From Picosynechococcus sp. PCC 7117 (GTDB lineage Bacteria > Cyanobacteriota > Cyanobacteriia > Cyanobacteriales > MRBY01): 64,000 bases of DNA. The notes beneath the pieces are model-generated. The model was not told the DNA's origin, did not search any database, and saw only the letters and a program-made list of their open reading frames with translations. Every line of letters starts with the position of its first letter. Positions within the stretch are counted from its first letter, which is position 1. Shown here piece by piece: positions 31,744 through 36,433 of this stretch. The translations under genes were made by a program, and so were the position numbers. Location of the stretch: the NCBI RefSeq assembly GCF_001693275.1, contig NZ_CP016477.1, forward strand, positions 2,542,001-2,606,000, given 5' to 3'.

Positions 31744-31788
31744 AGCTTAACTCCAAAATCTTGTAAAACTAATTTAATTTAAATTTTA

Positions 31789-31819
31789 TTCCTCTGATTT
31801 ACTTCAGGGGAATTTTTTT
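31789..31819 (+). terminator. Rho-independent terminator of groESL
   Basis: TTCCTCTGA pairs with TCAGGGGAA (nine pairs, one G-U) around a six-base loop, followed by seven T. It closes the groESL operon and separates it from the AT-rich retron islet. Confidence 0.85.
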
Positions 31820-31876
31820 GTGGGTATAATTTTAAATAGGAACTATTTAAATTTGAACATTATCCATATCTCAAAC

Positions 31877-32938
31877 ATGCTAACAAAAGAAGAATGTATA
31901 TTTGGTCAACAGGTATCATTAGAAGAAGGACAATACATTGAGTTTAAATCTTTTACAACAGACAAGTTGACACAGAAAAAGATCTCAGACAAATCCCTAA
32001 ATTATTTTGAAGATTACTTTTTGGGTTTTATGAATGCAAATTTTGATCAAGATTCTTTTCTATACATGGGGGTTGATGATAATGGACTTATTCAAGGAGT
32101 CCCCATTGAAAGAAATACTCGTGACAAAATCCAAAAGTTATTATCAAGTAAATTACAACAGAAATTTAATCGTAAAATTAATCCTGAAATTTGTTCTGTA
32201 AACTTCCTGAAAGTTTCGGAATGCCCAGAAGATTATTACATAATTGAGTTTGTAATTGGCAGTCATCCAAAAAAAGAGTTTTTTTATACCAGAAAAGGTA
32301 GCTCAACTGTTTATCTACGTGATGGTGCGACAAATCCCAAAATACAATCAGATCAGTTACTGAAAGAGATAATCAGAGGGAGAAAAGTTAACAGATTAAC
32401 AAGGGAGTCTCAAGAATTAAAAGACCAAATAGTCAATGATAAAAATAATATCGATCTAAGATATCAATTAATTAAGATTCTTGAAGAATTGGGTGATGCA
32501 AAGTCCATAGCTGGGCACTACGAAAAAATCATTCAAATACGTACTAATAAAGGAATACAAGATAGTGAAAATGATTCTGTCAGGATGCAACTTGCAAAAT
32601 CCTTAGAGCGTCTCGAAAATTCGGAAGGGGCATTAGATGTATTAGAAACAGTTCAAGACAAAAACAATGATGATTTCAAGAGAGAAAAAAGTAAAATTCT
32701 AAGTTCCCTTCATAAAGAACAGGAAGCTATCTCAATCTTAGAATCAATTGTAGAAAATAATCCCCAAGATTACCTTTCAATAACACAAATGGGGTTGATG
32801 TATTATAAGCAACAATCATGGATTGAATCTATTCGCTGTTTTTCTAAAGCACTCAAGATAGAACCTCGATATAGATTTGCAAAGTACTGGAAAAAATCTG
32901 CATATCATCAGATGTTAGCAAAAAACGGTCAATGCTAG
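31877..32938 (+). CDS. AlbA_2/Schlafen-type domain fused to TPR-like repeats (retron-linked)
   Basis: 353 residues. The N-terminal part (about 1-170) matches the AlbA_2 putative DNA-binding/Schlafen-type domain: an early EGQYIEFKSF, then FMNANFDQDSFLYMGVDDNGLIQGV (family pattern FaN...GG.l.iGVdD.G...G) and YTRKGSSTVYLRDGATN. The C-terminal part (about 180-353) is helical with TPR-like units (KSLERLENSEGALDVLE; LMYYKQQSWIESIRCFSKALKIEP). I start at ATG 31877; a GTG at 31820 abuts the groEL terminator and is unlikely. AT-rich, no HIP1 sites. The retron-type RT follows after a 179-base gap that encodes a candidate RNA. An effector or regulator of that retron is my inference. Confidence 0.75.
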   Translation: MLTKEECIFGQQVSLEEGQYIEFKSFTTDKLTQKKISDKSLNYFEDYFLGFMNANFDQDSFLYMGVDDNGLIQGVPIERNTRDKIQKLLSSKLQQKFNRKINPEICSVNFLKVSECPEDYYIIEFVIGSHPKKEFFYTRKGSSTVYLRDGATNPKIQSDQLLKEIIRGRKVNRLTRESQELKDQIVNDKNNIDLRYQLIKILEELGDAKSIAGHYEKIIQIRTNKGIQDSENDSVRMQLAKSLERLENSEGALDVLETVQDKNNDDFKREKSKILSSLHKEQEAISILESIVENNPQDYLSITQMGLMYYKQQSWIESIRCFSKALKIEPRYRFAKYWKKSAYHQMLAKNGQC

Positions 32939-32944
32939 TAAGAT
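32915..32944 (+). promoter_or_regulatory. Candidate promoter for the retron RNA
   Basis: TTAGCA, 18-base spacer, TAAGAT: each box matches four of six consensus bases. A start about seven bases downstream would fall at 32950-32952, exactly where the long inverted repeat of the candidate retron RNA begins. It overlaps the 3' end of the AlbA_2 gene. The fit is suggestive only. Confidence 0.35.
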
Positions 32945-32949
32945 ATGGG

Positions 32950-33093
32950 GTAAGTATCTAAAGGCTATGCATTGATTTCTGTTGTGTTAACTGCGACAGT
33001 GTCCTTTAACGTTAGCTATATGCTACTAACAATTATAATAATGTGCTCTGATGACAGGGCTAAAAGCTGGAATGTATAGTCTTAGGTGCTTGC
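32950..33093 (+). ncRNA. Candidate retron msr-msd RNA
   Basis: The two ends pair over 23 bp: 32950-32973 with 33071-33093, containing one bulged A (32960-32962 run) and about five G-U pairs. This is the position and role of the a1/a2 repeats of a retron. Inside are smaller hairpins: GTTAA/TTAAC (32986-32990 with 33006-33010), GTTAG/CTAAC (33011-33015 with 33026-33030), and GCTCTG-ATGA-CAGGGC (33045-33060). The first unpaired base after a1 is a G (32974), where the branch guanosine would be, though the usual AGC context is absent. The 97-nt interior is small for msr plus msd. The RT starts 24 bases downstream. Confidence 0.62.
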
Positions 33094-33117
33094 AAAAGTG
33101 ACTTGAATTATTGAGTA

Positions 33118-34173
33118 ATGTATTTAGAGTCTTCTTGTGAGCGATTAAAACATGATTTTTTAAAGCTCGAAAACAATAGAGAGTTAGCGGAACTATTAAA
33201 TATTTCCTTCAGCAGAATCACTTATTATGTAGTAAGAATACCTGATTCCGCACGCTACCGCTCATTTCAGATCAAAAAAAGATCAGGGGGATTTAGAAAA
33301 ATAGATACTCCTATTAAATCTTTAAAGATTATTCAACAAAAGCTCAGCCAAGTTTTATATAGCGTTTATCAAGAAAAATCATGTGTTCATGGATTTGTAG
33401 TGAATAAGGATATCATTTCAAATGCAAGAGCGCATACAAAGAAAGATTTTGTGTTAAATATAGATTTAGAAAACTTTTTTGGAACAATTAATTTTGGAAG
33501 AGTTAGGGGTCTTTTTATTGGTGAACCATATAATCTTCCCCAAGATGTGGCAACTATGATAGCTAATATTTGTTGTTATAATAATCAGCTACCTCAAGGA
33601 GCTCCTACCTCACCAATAATTTCTAATATGATCTGTGAAAGATTAGATAGAAAACTTCAGCAATTTGCACGCAAATATAAGCTTTTTTATACAAGATATG
33701 CTGATGATATAACTTTATCAGCAACACGTAAAGAGATTCCTTCTTCGCTAGCTACCGTATCTCCAGAAAACCGGAATAAGATTGAATTAGGAGATGAGTT
33801 ACAAAAAATAATTTACGAAAATGGATTTAGTATCAATCATAAAAAAACACGTATTGCATATTCTGATCAATCACAGAAAGTAACGGGTTTGATAGTCAAT
33901 AAAACTGTTAATGTTCCTCGAAAATATATTCGTGATGTTCGAGCTGCATTACATGATTGGGACAAAAATGGATATAGTAAGGCACAAGAAAAGTATCATT
34001 TAAAGTACGCAAAACAACCTTCTCTACAATCAAAAGATTCTCCTAGCTTACATGATTCCCTTAGGGGAAGTATTGAATTTATTGGTCATGTTCGTGGAAG
34101 GAAAGATAAAGTTTTTTGTCGTCTCATCGCTAAGTTAACTGTTTTAAAATATCGAGATTTAAGCAAGTCATAA
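33118..34173 (+). CDS. Retron-type reverse transcriptase
   Basis: RNA-directed DNA polymerase, 351 residues. Seen: fingers motif SGGFRKID (56-63), region X motif NARAH (102-106; retron NAxxH), motif A NIDLENFF with D116, QGAPTSP (160-166), catalytic YADD (194-197), NHKKTR (240-245), and region Y VTG (255-257). NAxxH plus VTG are the hallmarks of retron RTs. It lacks maturase and endonuclease domains of group II introns and has SP, not the SQ of diversity-generating RTs. A structured RNA candidate ends 24 bases upstream and an AlbA_2-TPR gene precedes that. AT-rich; no clear Shine-Dalgarno. A phage-defence role is inferred from other retrons. Confidence 0.93.
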   Translation: MYLESSCERLKHDFLKLENNRELAELLNISFSRITYYVVRIPDSARYRSFQIKKRSGGFRKIDTPIKSLKIIQQKLSQVLYSVYQEKSCVHGFVVNKDIISNARAHTKKDFVLNIDLENFFGTINFGRVRGLFIGEPYNLPQDVATMIANICCYNNQLPQGAPTSPIISNMICERLDRKLQQFARKYKLFYTRYADDITLSATRKEIPSSLATVSPENRNKIELGDELQKIIYENGFSINHKKTRIAYSDQSQKVTGLIVNKTVNVPRKYIRDVRAALHDWDKNGYSKAQEKYHLKYAKQPSLQSKDSPSLHDSLRGSIEFIGHVRGRKDKVFCRLIAKLTVLKYRDLSKS

Positions 34174-34233
34174 AATCTATTCTTAATGCCATTATTTAAC
34201 AGTTTTTTTCATACGGAGTTGGGGCACTAATAG

Positions 34234-34416
34234 CACAATAAATCAAAATCAATACCACAATTAACAGCTTTTCTTAATCAGCAAGCTGGACGAGAGAGAT
34301 TACAGAACTAATTTGTGTCCATTTTAAAAAATCAATCATCATTGCTTAATGTTGCTTTTGAAGCCAGCCAAGCTGGGGTCTGCTATATATTTGGGATAGA
34401 TATGGAGGGACTATAA
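34234..34416 (+). pseudogene. Possible decayed transposase fragment (IS110-like)
   Basis: The frame reads a protein-like stretch (SIPQLTAFLNQQAGRERLQN, a TAA at 34309, then LLNVAFEASQAGV) in an otherwise non-coding gap. The pattern N-x-KSIPQL...FL followed by a VAFEAS segment resembles the N-terminal DEDD domain of IS110-type transposases (usually ...EATG/EASG). It has no start codon, is interrupted by a stop, and the rest is missing. The similarity is from memory and weak, so this is only a possible relic. Confidence 0.25.
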
Positions 34417-34420
34417 ATTT

Positions 34421-34885
34421 ATGGATGCAGAACAGGAAAGAAATTGGGCGATCGCCTGCCATTTGTCGAGCTTGGCTTGGATTGTCTTAGCCTTTGTCGG
34501 CATTGGGGCGATTCCCTTTGTCAATGTGATTGCGCCGGCGGTGGTCTGGTATCTCAAAAAAGAGGAGTCCGAGCTGATCGATGCCCACGGAAAGGAATCG
34601 GTTAATTTCCAGATTTCGATGACCATTTATGGTTTGGCGGCGGGAATTATTCTTAGTATTTTGATCATCGCCGGAGTTGTTTTGATGATCCTGTTGGGCA
34701 TTGGTGGCAGCAATAATCCCTTTGCGGCCCTGGTGGCAATTGTGACGGGGATTGGTTTCTTTATCTTTTTGGCGCTGATTGTGGCGATCGCCATTTTTCA
34801 GATTGCGGTGGTGATCTTGGCGGCGACCAAAGTTCAAGAAGGACAAATGTATCGTTATCCCTTTAATCTCAGACTACTGAAATAA
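34421..34885 (+). CDS. DUF4870 domain membrane protein
   Basis: Small integral membrane protein of the DUF4870 (Tic20-like fold) family. Seen: ERNWAIACHLSSLAWIV, FVNVIAPAVVWYLKKEESELIDAHGKESVNFQISMTIY (the family's conserved helix-loop with VxWxxKKxxSxFIDxHGKEAxNFQ) and two long C-terminal hydrophobic helices, ending YRYPFNLRLLK. AGGGAC lies 13 bases before the ATG. The function of the family is unknown. A terminator follows. Confidence 0.9.
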   Translation: MDAEQERNWAIACHLSSLAWIVLAFVGIGAIPFVNVIAPAVVWYLKKEESELIDAHGKESVNFQISMTIYGLAAGIILSILIIAGVVLMILLGIGGSNNPFAALVAIVTGIGFFIFLALIVAIAIFQIAVVILAATKVQEGQMYRYPFNLRLLK

Positions 34886-34903
34886 ATAACTTTCATAAAA
34901 CAG

Positions 34904-34935
34904 CCCCCCTGGAATGATTGGCCAAGGGGGTTTTT
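34904..34935 (+). terminator. Rho-independent terminator of the DUF4870 gene
   Basis: CCCCCCTGG pairs with CCAAGGGGG (eight of nine pairs, one C-A mismatch) and is followed by five T. It separates this gene from the convergent pepA. Confidence 0.7.
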
Positions 34936-34957
34936 AATTAAACTTTAGATGCAAAAA

Positions 34958-36433
34958 TTAGCTCAAGACCCAGTGGACGAGGGTACGCACCGGGAACCCT
35001 GTACCGCCTTTGCTGTAAATATCGGCGTCTTTTTCTGACCAGGCTGGCCCGGCAATATCGAGGTGTGCCCAGGGCGTTTTTTCGACAAATTCCTTGAGGA
35101 ACAACGCCGCCGTAATCGAACCGCCTTCCCGTGGCCCGGTGTTTTTCATGTCGGCGATGGGAGATTTTAAGCCTTCAAAGTATTTTTCTTCGAGGGGCAT
35201 CTGCCAGAATTTTTCGCCCGCTTTCTCTGATGCGGTGGCGATTGCCTGGGCGAGATCATCATTGTCACTCCACAGGCCACAAATATCGTCACCTAGGGCA
35301 ATGACGCAGGCTCCGGTCAAGGTGGCAATGTCCACAATCGCCTCGACCCCTAGCTTTTCGGCATAAACGAGGGCATCGGCGAGGGTGAGACGACCTTCGG
35401 CATCGGTGTTGTTCACTTCGATGGTTTTACCGTTGGAAGCCGTGAGAATATCCCCCGGACGCATCCCCCGACCACTGATCATATTTTCAGTAGCCGCACT
35501 AATGAAATGCACTTCCACATCGGGTTTGAGTTCGGCGATCGCCTTTGCTGCCCCAAAAGTTGCCGCTGCGCCCCCCATGTCCATTTTCATCATCGCGATG
35601 CTGGGGCCGGAGGGTTTGATGTTATAGCCACCAGAATCAAAGGTTAACCCTTTGCCGACAATCGCCACTTTCTTCCGGGGTGTGCCTGGGGGTTTATAAA
35701 CGAGGTGGATAAATTTCGGGGGTAAATCCGAGGCCGCCGCCACCCCAAGAAAAGATCCCATTCCTGCTGCTTCGCAGTCTGCTTCTTCGAGGATATTCAG
35801 TTCCAGGCCATAGGTGCTGGCGAGGCTTTCCACGGAAGCGGCCAGGGTCACAGGATTAATAATGTTAGCCGGAGCGTTAACCAATTCCCGCGCATAGATC
35901 ACCCCTTCACAGAGGCTTGTGCCCAAGGCGATCGCCGCTGCTTGGTCGCCAATGCCAAGGATTTCAACAGCTTCGAGGGCTAGGGGGTCTTTTTGTTCTG
36001 ATTTGAAGCGATTATCTTCATAAAAGCCCAGATACATCCCTTCTGTAACCATTTGCGCTGTGATTGCCTCAGTTTCGGCCACTGGCAACTGCAAACCCAA
36101 AGTTGTGATGGCTTTGTCCCCTTTCACAGCCCGGGCGATCGCCGCTGCGGAACTCCGTAAGGCGGCACTATTCCATTTCTCGGCATTTCCCAGACCCACC
36201 AGGATCAACTTTTTGATCGGCGCACCACTCCCAAGACGGGTCACCGATAGCTCGCCGGATTTGCCTTTAAATTCCGTTTCAACGATTACTTCTGAGATCA
36301 CCCCCGATAAGCGTTCGTCCAGGGCCGTCAAACTTTCGGGTACCGTGAGTACCGTTTCACTTTCAAAAAAACCCAAGGCGATCGCCTCACCAGCCCAAGC
36401 CGCTGCCGTTTGCGAACTACCGCGAATTTCCAT
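34958..36433 (-). CDS. pepA: Leucyl aminopeptidase (M17 family)
   Basis: Di-metal cytosolic aminopeptidase. Seen: [16 protein letters not shown] with metal-binding Lys/Asp, MKMDMGGAA, the family signature [28 protein letters not shown], and [17 protein letters not shown] near the end. 491 residues is normal. The N-terminal domain begins [15 protein letters not shown]. Monocistronic on the minus strand, following the PBP-GGDEF-EAL gene after 80 bases. Confidence 0.96.

Follow-up and report, generated by a model that had tools for sequence, protein, structure and literature searches.

The 144-nt stretch from 32950 to 33093 is almost certainly the msr-msd RNA of a retron, as judged from its sequence and that of its relatives. 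Together with the reverse transcriptase (RT) and the presumed Schlafen-type RNase effector encoded on either side, it probably forms a tripartite phage-defence retron, this grading being meant for the whole chain of events, including silencing of the effector and its release by phage. The window, i.e., the whole stretch of DNA that was analysed, comprises 64,000 nt of Picosynechococcus sp. PCC 7117 (GCF_001693275.1, NZ_CP016477.1, positions 2,542,001-2,606,000, forward strand), and all feature positions are window positions. The following features are discussed:

31748..34376, + strand: stretch not common to congener G081; blastn homology to its locus L067 stops at 31747 and resumes at 34377
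31788..31813, + strand: terminator-like hairpin after groEL, near the left cassette edge; 10-pair stem with a T run, from a consensus scan, which is not proof
31820..32938, + strand: partner gene, SLFN_AlbA_2 domain (1.1e-12) plus TPR; homologues lie ahead of RNA and RT
32950..32973, + strand: a1 arm of the retron RNA; pairs with a2 over 23 bp, 5 of them G-U, with one A bulged out; the helix covaries across 25 RNAs
32974..32974, + strand: guanosine directly following a1, candidate for the priming base; 22 of the 25 RNAs aligned have G here
32979..32999, + strand: msr hairpin; the window fold has 7 bp, and 6 pairs entered the count; predicted by RNAalifold without the window
33014..33016, + strand: conserved AGC, alternative context of the priming G; present in 22 of 25 aligned RNAs
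33020..33070, + strand: probable msd template region with putative limits; length and sequence vary between relatives
33071..33093, + strand: a2 arm of the retron RNA, on the same basis as a1 (pairing and covariation)
33118..34173, + strand: retron RT, 351 aa, stand-alone; RVT_1 1.9e-23, retron motifs NAxxH, VTG and YADD

Retron RNA ahead of the reverse transcriptase

A preliminary description of this DNA had reported a 23-bp imperfect inverted repeat with one bulge and G-U wobbles in the short gap before the RT. Both points hold. All 23 of 23 pairs form (18 Watson-Crick and 5 G-U) once the bulged A is removed; this base is set at 32960, its exact place being open within a run AAA. Upstream of the stem, an open reading frame ends at 32938, and downstream of it the RT frame starts at 33118. 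Its score in the gap 32939-33117 was 49, which none of 396 random window places and none of 400 mononucleotide shuffles reached; the top control stem scored 47 in both sets, a small margin on score alone. The stretch 32940-33100 folds at -47.6 kcal/mol (z -3.3; none of 200 dinucleotide shuffles reached this value), and its minimum-free-energy structure includes the a1/a2 stem.

The comparative RNA tests are far stronger than those of stem score and folding energy. Upstream of the relatives' RTs, a common core was found that reads roughly TTGATTTCC-RTTG-loop-CGAYGG, followed by the conserved AGC; many of these RNAs also carry AAGC..GAAT just ahead of a2. From 17 relatives without the window, RNAalifold predicted the a1/a2 stem and the msr hairpin unaided, with double changes in 11 of 21 pairs. 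A covariance model was trained on 17 relatives with the window left out; its calibration was short, so that E-values are rough. It matches the window at 32953-33090 with 64.6 bits (E 3.8e-12, rough), the sole match in 64 kb up to E 10. Across 81 sources (the window and loci L071-L150), the model gave 39 matches at 0.01 or better, and 43 sources had none. All 39 lie on the RT strand, ahead of the RT; 13 are training sequences or same-contig copies, and the other 26, which include the window and loci with fused RTs, are neither. Among kin genomes, 17 of 195 hold a match, own and training genomes counted.

In 25 aligned RNAs, 94.6% of 523 cells in the a1/a2 stem and the msr hairpin are paired, and double changes occur in 15 of 21 pairs. 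Double-change cells number 82, compared with 27.7 in shuffles (0 of 500 as high). The msr hairpin by itself has 98.7% of cells paired and double changes at three of six pairs. Compensatory changes among the RNAs of related RTs, whose lack the preliminary description had named as speaking against its reading, are thus present, namely in 9 of 10 pairs of the outer a1/a2 helix and 3 of 5 of the inner one. The outer helix is favoured in this count because the RNA ends were picked by pairing. Such picking explains neither the covariance model match nor the slid control, in which shifting the partner by 1-3 columns lowers pairing from 94.6% to 33.9-51.5%. Outer arm sequences vary by group, e.g., ATCACTTGCGG/CCGCAAGTGAT in one group versus the window's own, and pairing is kept. 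The covarying helix and the match of a model built from window-free relatives support the earlier proposal that the two arms are the a1/a2 ends of a retron RNA.

Two genomes carry two tandem retron RNAs before one RT (L082 5286-5481 and 5731-5880; G074:C1:2320998-2321134 and 2321293-2321460). At L007/L037 (G022), a stop codon breaks the RT frame and the RNA model still recognises the RNA. An Rfam scan over 32000-35000 returned no retron family; its single row, PinT at 34709-34797, stays far below the gathering score.

As for the priming guanosine, G32974 is taken as the candidate because of its place next to a1. Where the base after a1 is not G, it is T (L071 and L074) or A (L101) in the 25 aligned RNAs. 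G32974 lies outside the AGC context, the AGC being found further downstream. In the available part of PMC6868368, the priming G adjoins the inner end of the stem, and the priming context of Retron-Eco2 is CAGA, not TAGC.

Stand-alone reverse transcriptase

The best PADLOC models for the window RT are RT-TIR_XII (5.3e-133), RT-Protease_XI (4.6e-132) and RT-Toprim_I-C (3.6e-124), which are matched in their RT parts only. Indeed, the XI, XII and I-C matches stop at profile positions 331/475, 318/506 and 312/529, respectively, and a fused effector at the RT C-terminus is absent. Solved retron RTs are matched as well, namely the Retron Ec67 protein (5.5e-58) and Ec86 (7.4e-38). NAxxH is a mark of retron RTs, and the window RT carries NARAH, YADD and VTG. 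The last motif is the start of region Y, according to the available part of PMC6868368. By these sequence matches, the RT is closest to types I-C/XI/XII, but it is stand-alone. An RT search of the window's own genome gave a single match at a cut-off of E 0.001; with the stricter cut-off of E 1e-40, an RT is found in 23 of 386 genomes of the phylum, its own counted.

Schlafen-type partner protein

The gene ahead of the RNA, whose start, judging by the alignment, is more likely the ATG at 31877, looks like a Schlafen-type RNase domain joined to a protein-binding TPR domain. Homologues with 28-31% identity to the window protein precede RNA and RT in five further genomes of cyanobacteria among the loci listed (L072, L073, L074, L076, L099). 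A profile of the six homologues matches SLFN11 (7fex, E 3.2e-10) and SLFN14 (2.6e-7). By pattern, the window protein has the features by which a Schlafen endoribonuclease is recognised in sequence, i.e., an SLFN_AlbA_2 domain with the active-site residues E, E and K. E36, E41 and K43 fall on E209, E214 and K216 of SLFN11 by pattern and spacing, not by checked residue numbers. The predicted structure has a whole-model mean pLDDT of 63.5 and models the AlbA_2 part poorly; hence, the fold assignment of this part depends on sequence.

PADLOC gave no match for the partner at 0.001, a plasmid search with it likewise gave none, and the SLFN/AlbA_2 domain profile at 1e-12 found the window only, with no match in 385 other genomes. 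A full-length search of 386 genomes returned the window and one match limited to the TPR part.

The partner could instead be an RNA- or DNA-binding regulator with AlbA_2 as its binding domain, and not a nuclease, which we regard as unlikely yet worth keeping in mind. AlbA_2 was originally named as a DNA-binding domain, which counts for this reading, and the third carboxylate is not conserved, partner D86 being N in L073 and L076. E-x4-E-x-K (as E-x4-E-F-K), however, is found in all six partners, in the L099 copy before the mechanical start, and fits residues essential in SLFN11. In the available part of PMC9482658, E209, E214 and K216 of SLFN11 are required, and D252A retained activity.

Gene order in relatives and genomic site

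Genome and viral contig scans with the RT alone and chosen peptide patterns confirmed no relative, probably because the patterns were too specific; an alignment query gave many. Of the loci recovered with a 14-row RT alignment, 569 in genomes and 373 viral, the best 80 of each kind were followed. The gene-order tally, sorted by hand, covers the 34 stand-alone-RT loci among the matches listed, i.e., 38 minus L035, L038 and L040, which share contigs with L079, L086 and L085, and minus L121, which belongs to another RT branch. The tally further excludes L034 and L092, which are copies, and L047 and L048, which are RT fragments.

Among these 34 listed loci, the SLFN-TPR gene is upstream in six (the window, L072, L073, L074, L076 and L099), and other TPR proteins are upstream in five (L043, L084, L087, L089 and L101). 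An R-x4-H protein is downstream in 18. In three, the partner is hidden by a contig end (L071, L075, L032), and in two no partner was seen (L037, where the RT frame is broken, and L039). A quick RT tree places the SLFN-TPR-partnered RTs in one 8-row set (support 96), which also includes L071 and the long-branched fused RT of L111. The group labelled HEPN in this tree has 22 rows, four of which (L032, L037, L039, L075) are without an R-x4-H protein in view.

In the stretch 31748-34376, unshared with congener G081, the only long genes are those of partner and RT, with the RNA between them. In G081, the place between groEL and the DUF4870 gene is taken by a gene (L067 2745-4520) for a 591-aa protein that Pfam identifies as an AAA ATPase; it is called OLD/Gabija-like because its PADLOC matches include NsnB, AriA, ATPase-Toprim_I-B and GajA. 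The homology break at 31747/34377 thus suggests that partner, RNA and RT were the exchanged stretch, at a site where a different defence-type gene can sit as well. Sigma-70-like sites are no commoner than in shuffles (9 versus 12.2).

This arrangement bears on a further reading, in which RNA and RT do form a retron, but one that has lost its true downstream effector, and the SLFN/AlbA_2-TPR gene beside them is not part of it. Over half of the listed stand-alone-RT loci have the downstream R-x4-H protein and the window has none; its RT is followed, some 250 bases on, by the DUF4870 gene also found in congeners. Nevertheless, the SLFN-TPR gene recurs upstream in the five other genomes and tracks one RT group, no R-x4-H protein was seen downstream in those five loci, and the unshared stretch holds no further long gene besides the three components, which makes such a loss quite improbable. 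That the inverted repeat serves to control the RT, as an operator in the DNA or a leader in the RNA, and is no retron template, is very improbable, since its position ahead of a gene is the one, unspecific point in favour, while the five G-U pairs and the RNA covariation agree with the earlier argument that the wobbles betray a folded RNA, the msr-like core is common to RNAs before other retron RTs, and the window RT has retron motifs.

Proposed TPR adaptor of the upstream partners

The five other TPR proteins differ in their remaining parts. In L043 (7621-9501) and L089 (1697-3583), a trypsin-like domain is on the same chain; in L084 (3394-5543), it is in the neighbouring gene; the protein of L101 (491-2092) is without a trypsin-like match. 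The L087 partner consists of two overlapping frames, perhaps a split gene. The middle part of the L043, L089 and L101 proteins resembles, we presume, CHAT peptidases.

All 11 of 11 upstream partners end in a C-terminal motif P-x-Y-R-x3-Y-x5-[YH], which no other of the 9189 ORFs of the examined loci has; the count is partly circular and speaks for specificity only, because the motif was read from the same proteins. With the TPR profile, hits to ordinary TPR proteins are common, occurring in 63 of 386 genomes at 1e-25. Above 123 bits, the profile has two matches only, the window and the genome of L043, both members of the query alignment. We infer that the TPR domain with its C-terminal tail is the part meeting RT and msDNA. 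More broadly, we lean towards a cyanobacterial retron branch in which swappable killing heads are set on the RT-msDNA via one shared TPR adaptor, encoded upstream and bearing this C-terminal signature; one clade would use a Schlafen-type RNase as its head, another trypsin-like protease architectures.

Proposed mechanism and known systems

In the tripartite retron proposed here, the RT would bind the msr, prime on the guanosine next to a1 and copy the msd into DNA, giving msDNA. The RT-msDNA complex would keep the SLFN/AlbA_2-TPR protein silent via its TPR domain and C-terminal tail. A phage product may then disturb the complex and free the Schlafen-type domain as an RNase, most likely acting on tRNA, and translation in the infected cell would halt. 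Beyond the existence of RNA, RT and partner, every step of this mechanism is conjectural. It follows the scheme of known retrons, in which, according to the available parts of PMC12548924 and PMC13405049, RT and msDNA restrain a toxic effector, which a phage product then frees.

Several known systems are comparable. Retron types I-C (Ec67/Eco2, RT-TOPRIM), XI (RT-protease) and XII (RT-TIR) provide the best PADLOC models, and loci with longer, fused RTs are among those recognised by the RNA model. In these types, the effector is fused, whereas the window RT stops at 351 aa and its partner is a separate upstream gene. The type IX retron Kva2 (HEPN and winged-helix effectors), as described in the available part of PMC13405049, has a separate effector, a proposed tRNA cutter held by RT and msDNA. 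Its RT, in contrast, belongs to another group (RT_IX 183 bits versus 442 for the best model), and its effector is HEPN, unlike the Schlafen-type partner of the window. The Schlafen RNases SLFN11, SLFN13 and SLFN14 and bacterial Schlafen defence proteins share SLFN_AlbA_2 with E-x4-E-x-K with the window partner, which differs in its TPR fusion and in having a retron as its neighbour. A full-text literature search found no paper joining retrons with an AlbA_2, Schlafen or TPR effector; the main typing paper was outside this search and may list the pairing.

With these results, a repeat spotted by hand becomes a comparative RNA family of cyanobacterial retrons. Retrons would moreover be linked to Schlafen-type RNases, a family restricting viruses in mammals. 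A common TPR tail on different heads may offer a handle on how RT-msDNA complexes hold their effectors, an open mechanistic question.

Downstream proteins of related retrons

In L077 (7077-7949) and 17 other stand-alone-RT loci, the R-x4-H protein downstream of the RT has 178-335 aa, with the pattern in 18 of 18. R148 and H153 are invariant in 11 aligned rows, and seven scanned proteins gave no Pfam match above cut-off. Some of these loci have a larger protein next; the one in L041 matches AAA_33 and WYL. A model of the R-x4-H protein (mean pLDDT 86.8) matched nothing in the PDB at a cut-off of E 0.001, its top rows being mostly RRM-like, so that the HEPN fold is a lead only. The protein is a possible HEPN RNase; among known retrons, type IX has HEPN effectors (PMC13405049, available part).

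A relative within the same genus is found on plasmid pAQ5 of Picosynechococcus sp. PCC 7002, a strain in common laboratory use (L027, 4681-8946). It carries a related retron RNA, the same kind of RT and, instead of SLFN-TPR, a downstream R-x4-H partner, as well as a protein annotated as ATP-binding. In L028 (4905-9268) and L046, the RTs are about 755 aa long, with a C-terminal extension of about 400 aa, and are followed by a protein of about 695 aa which starts alike in both.
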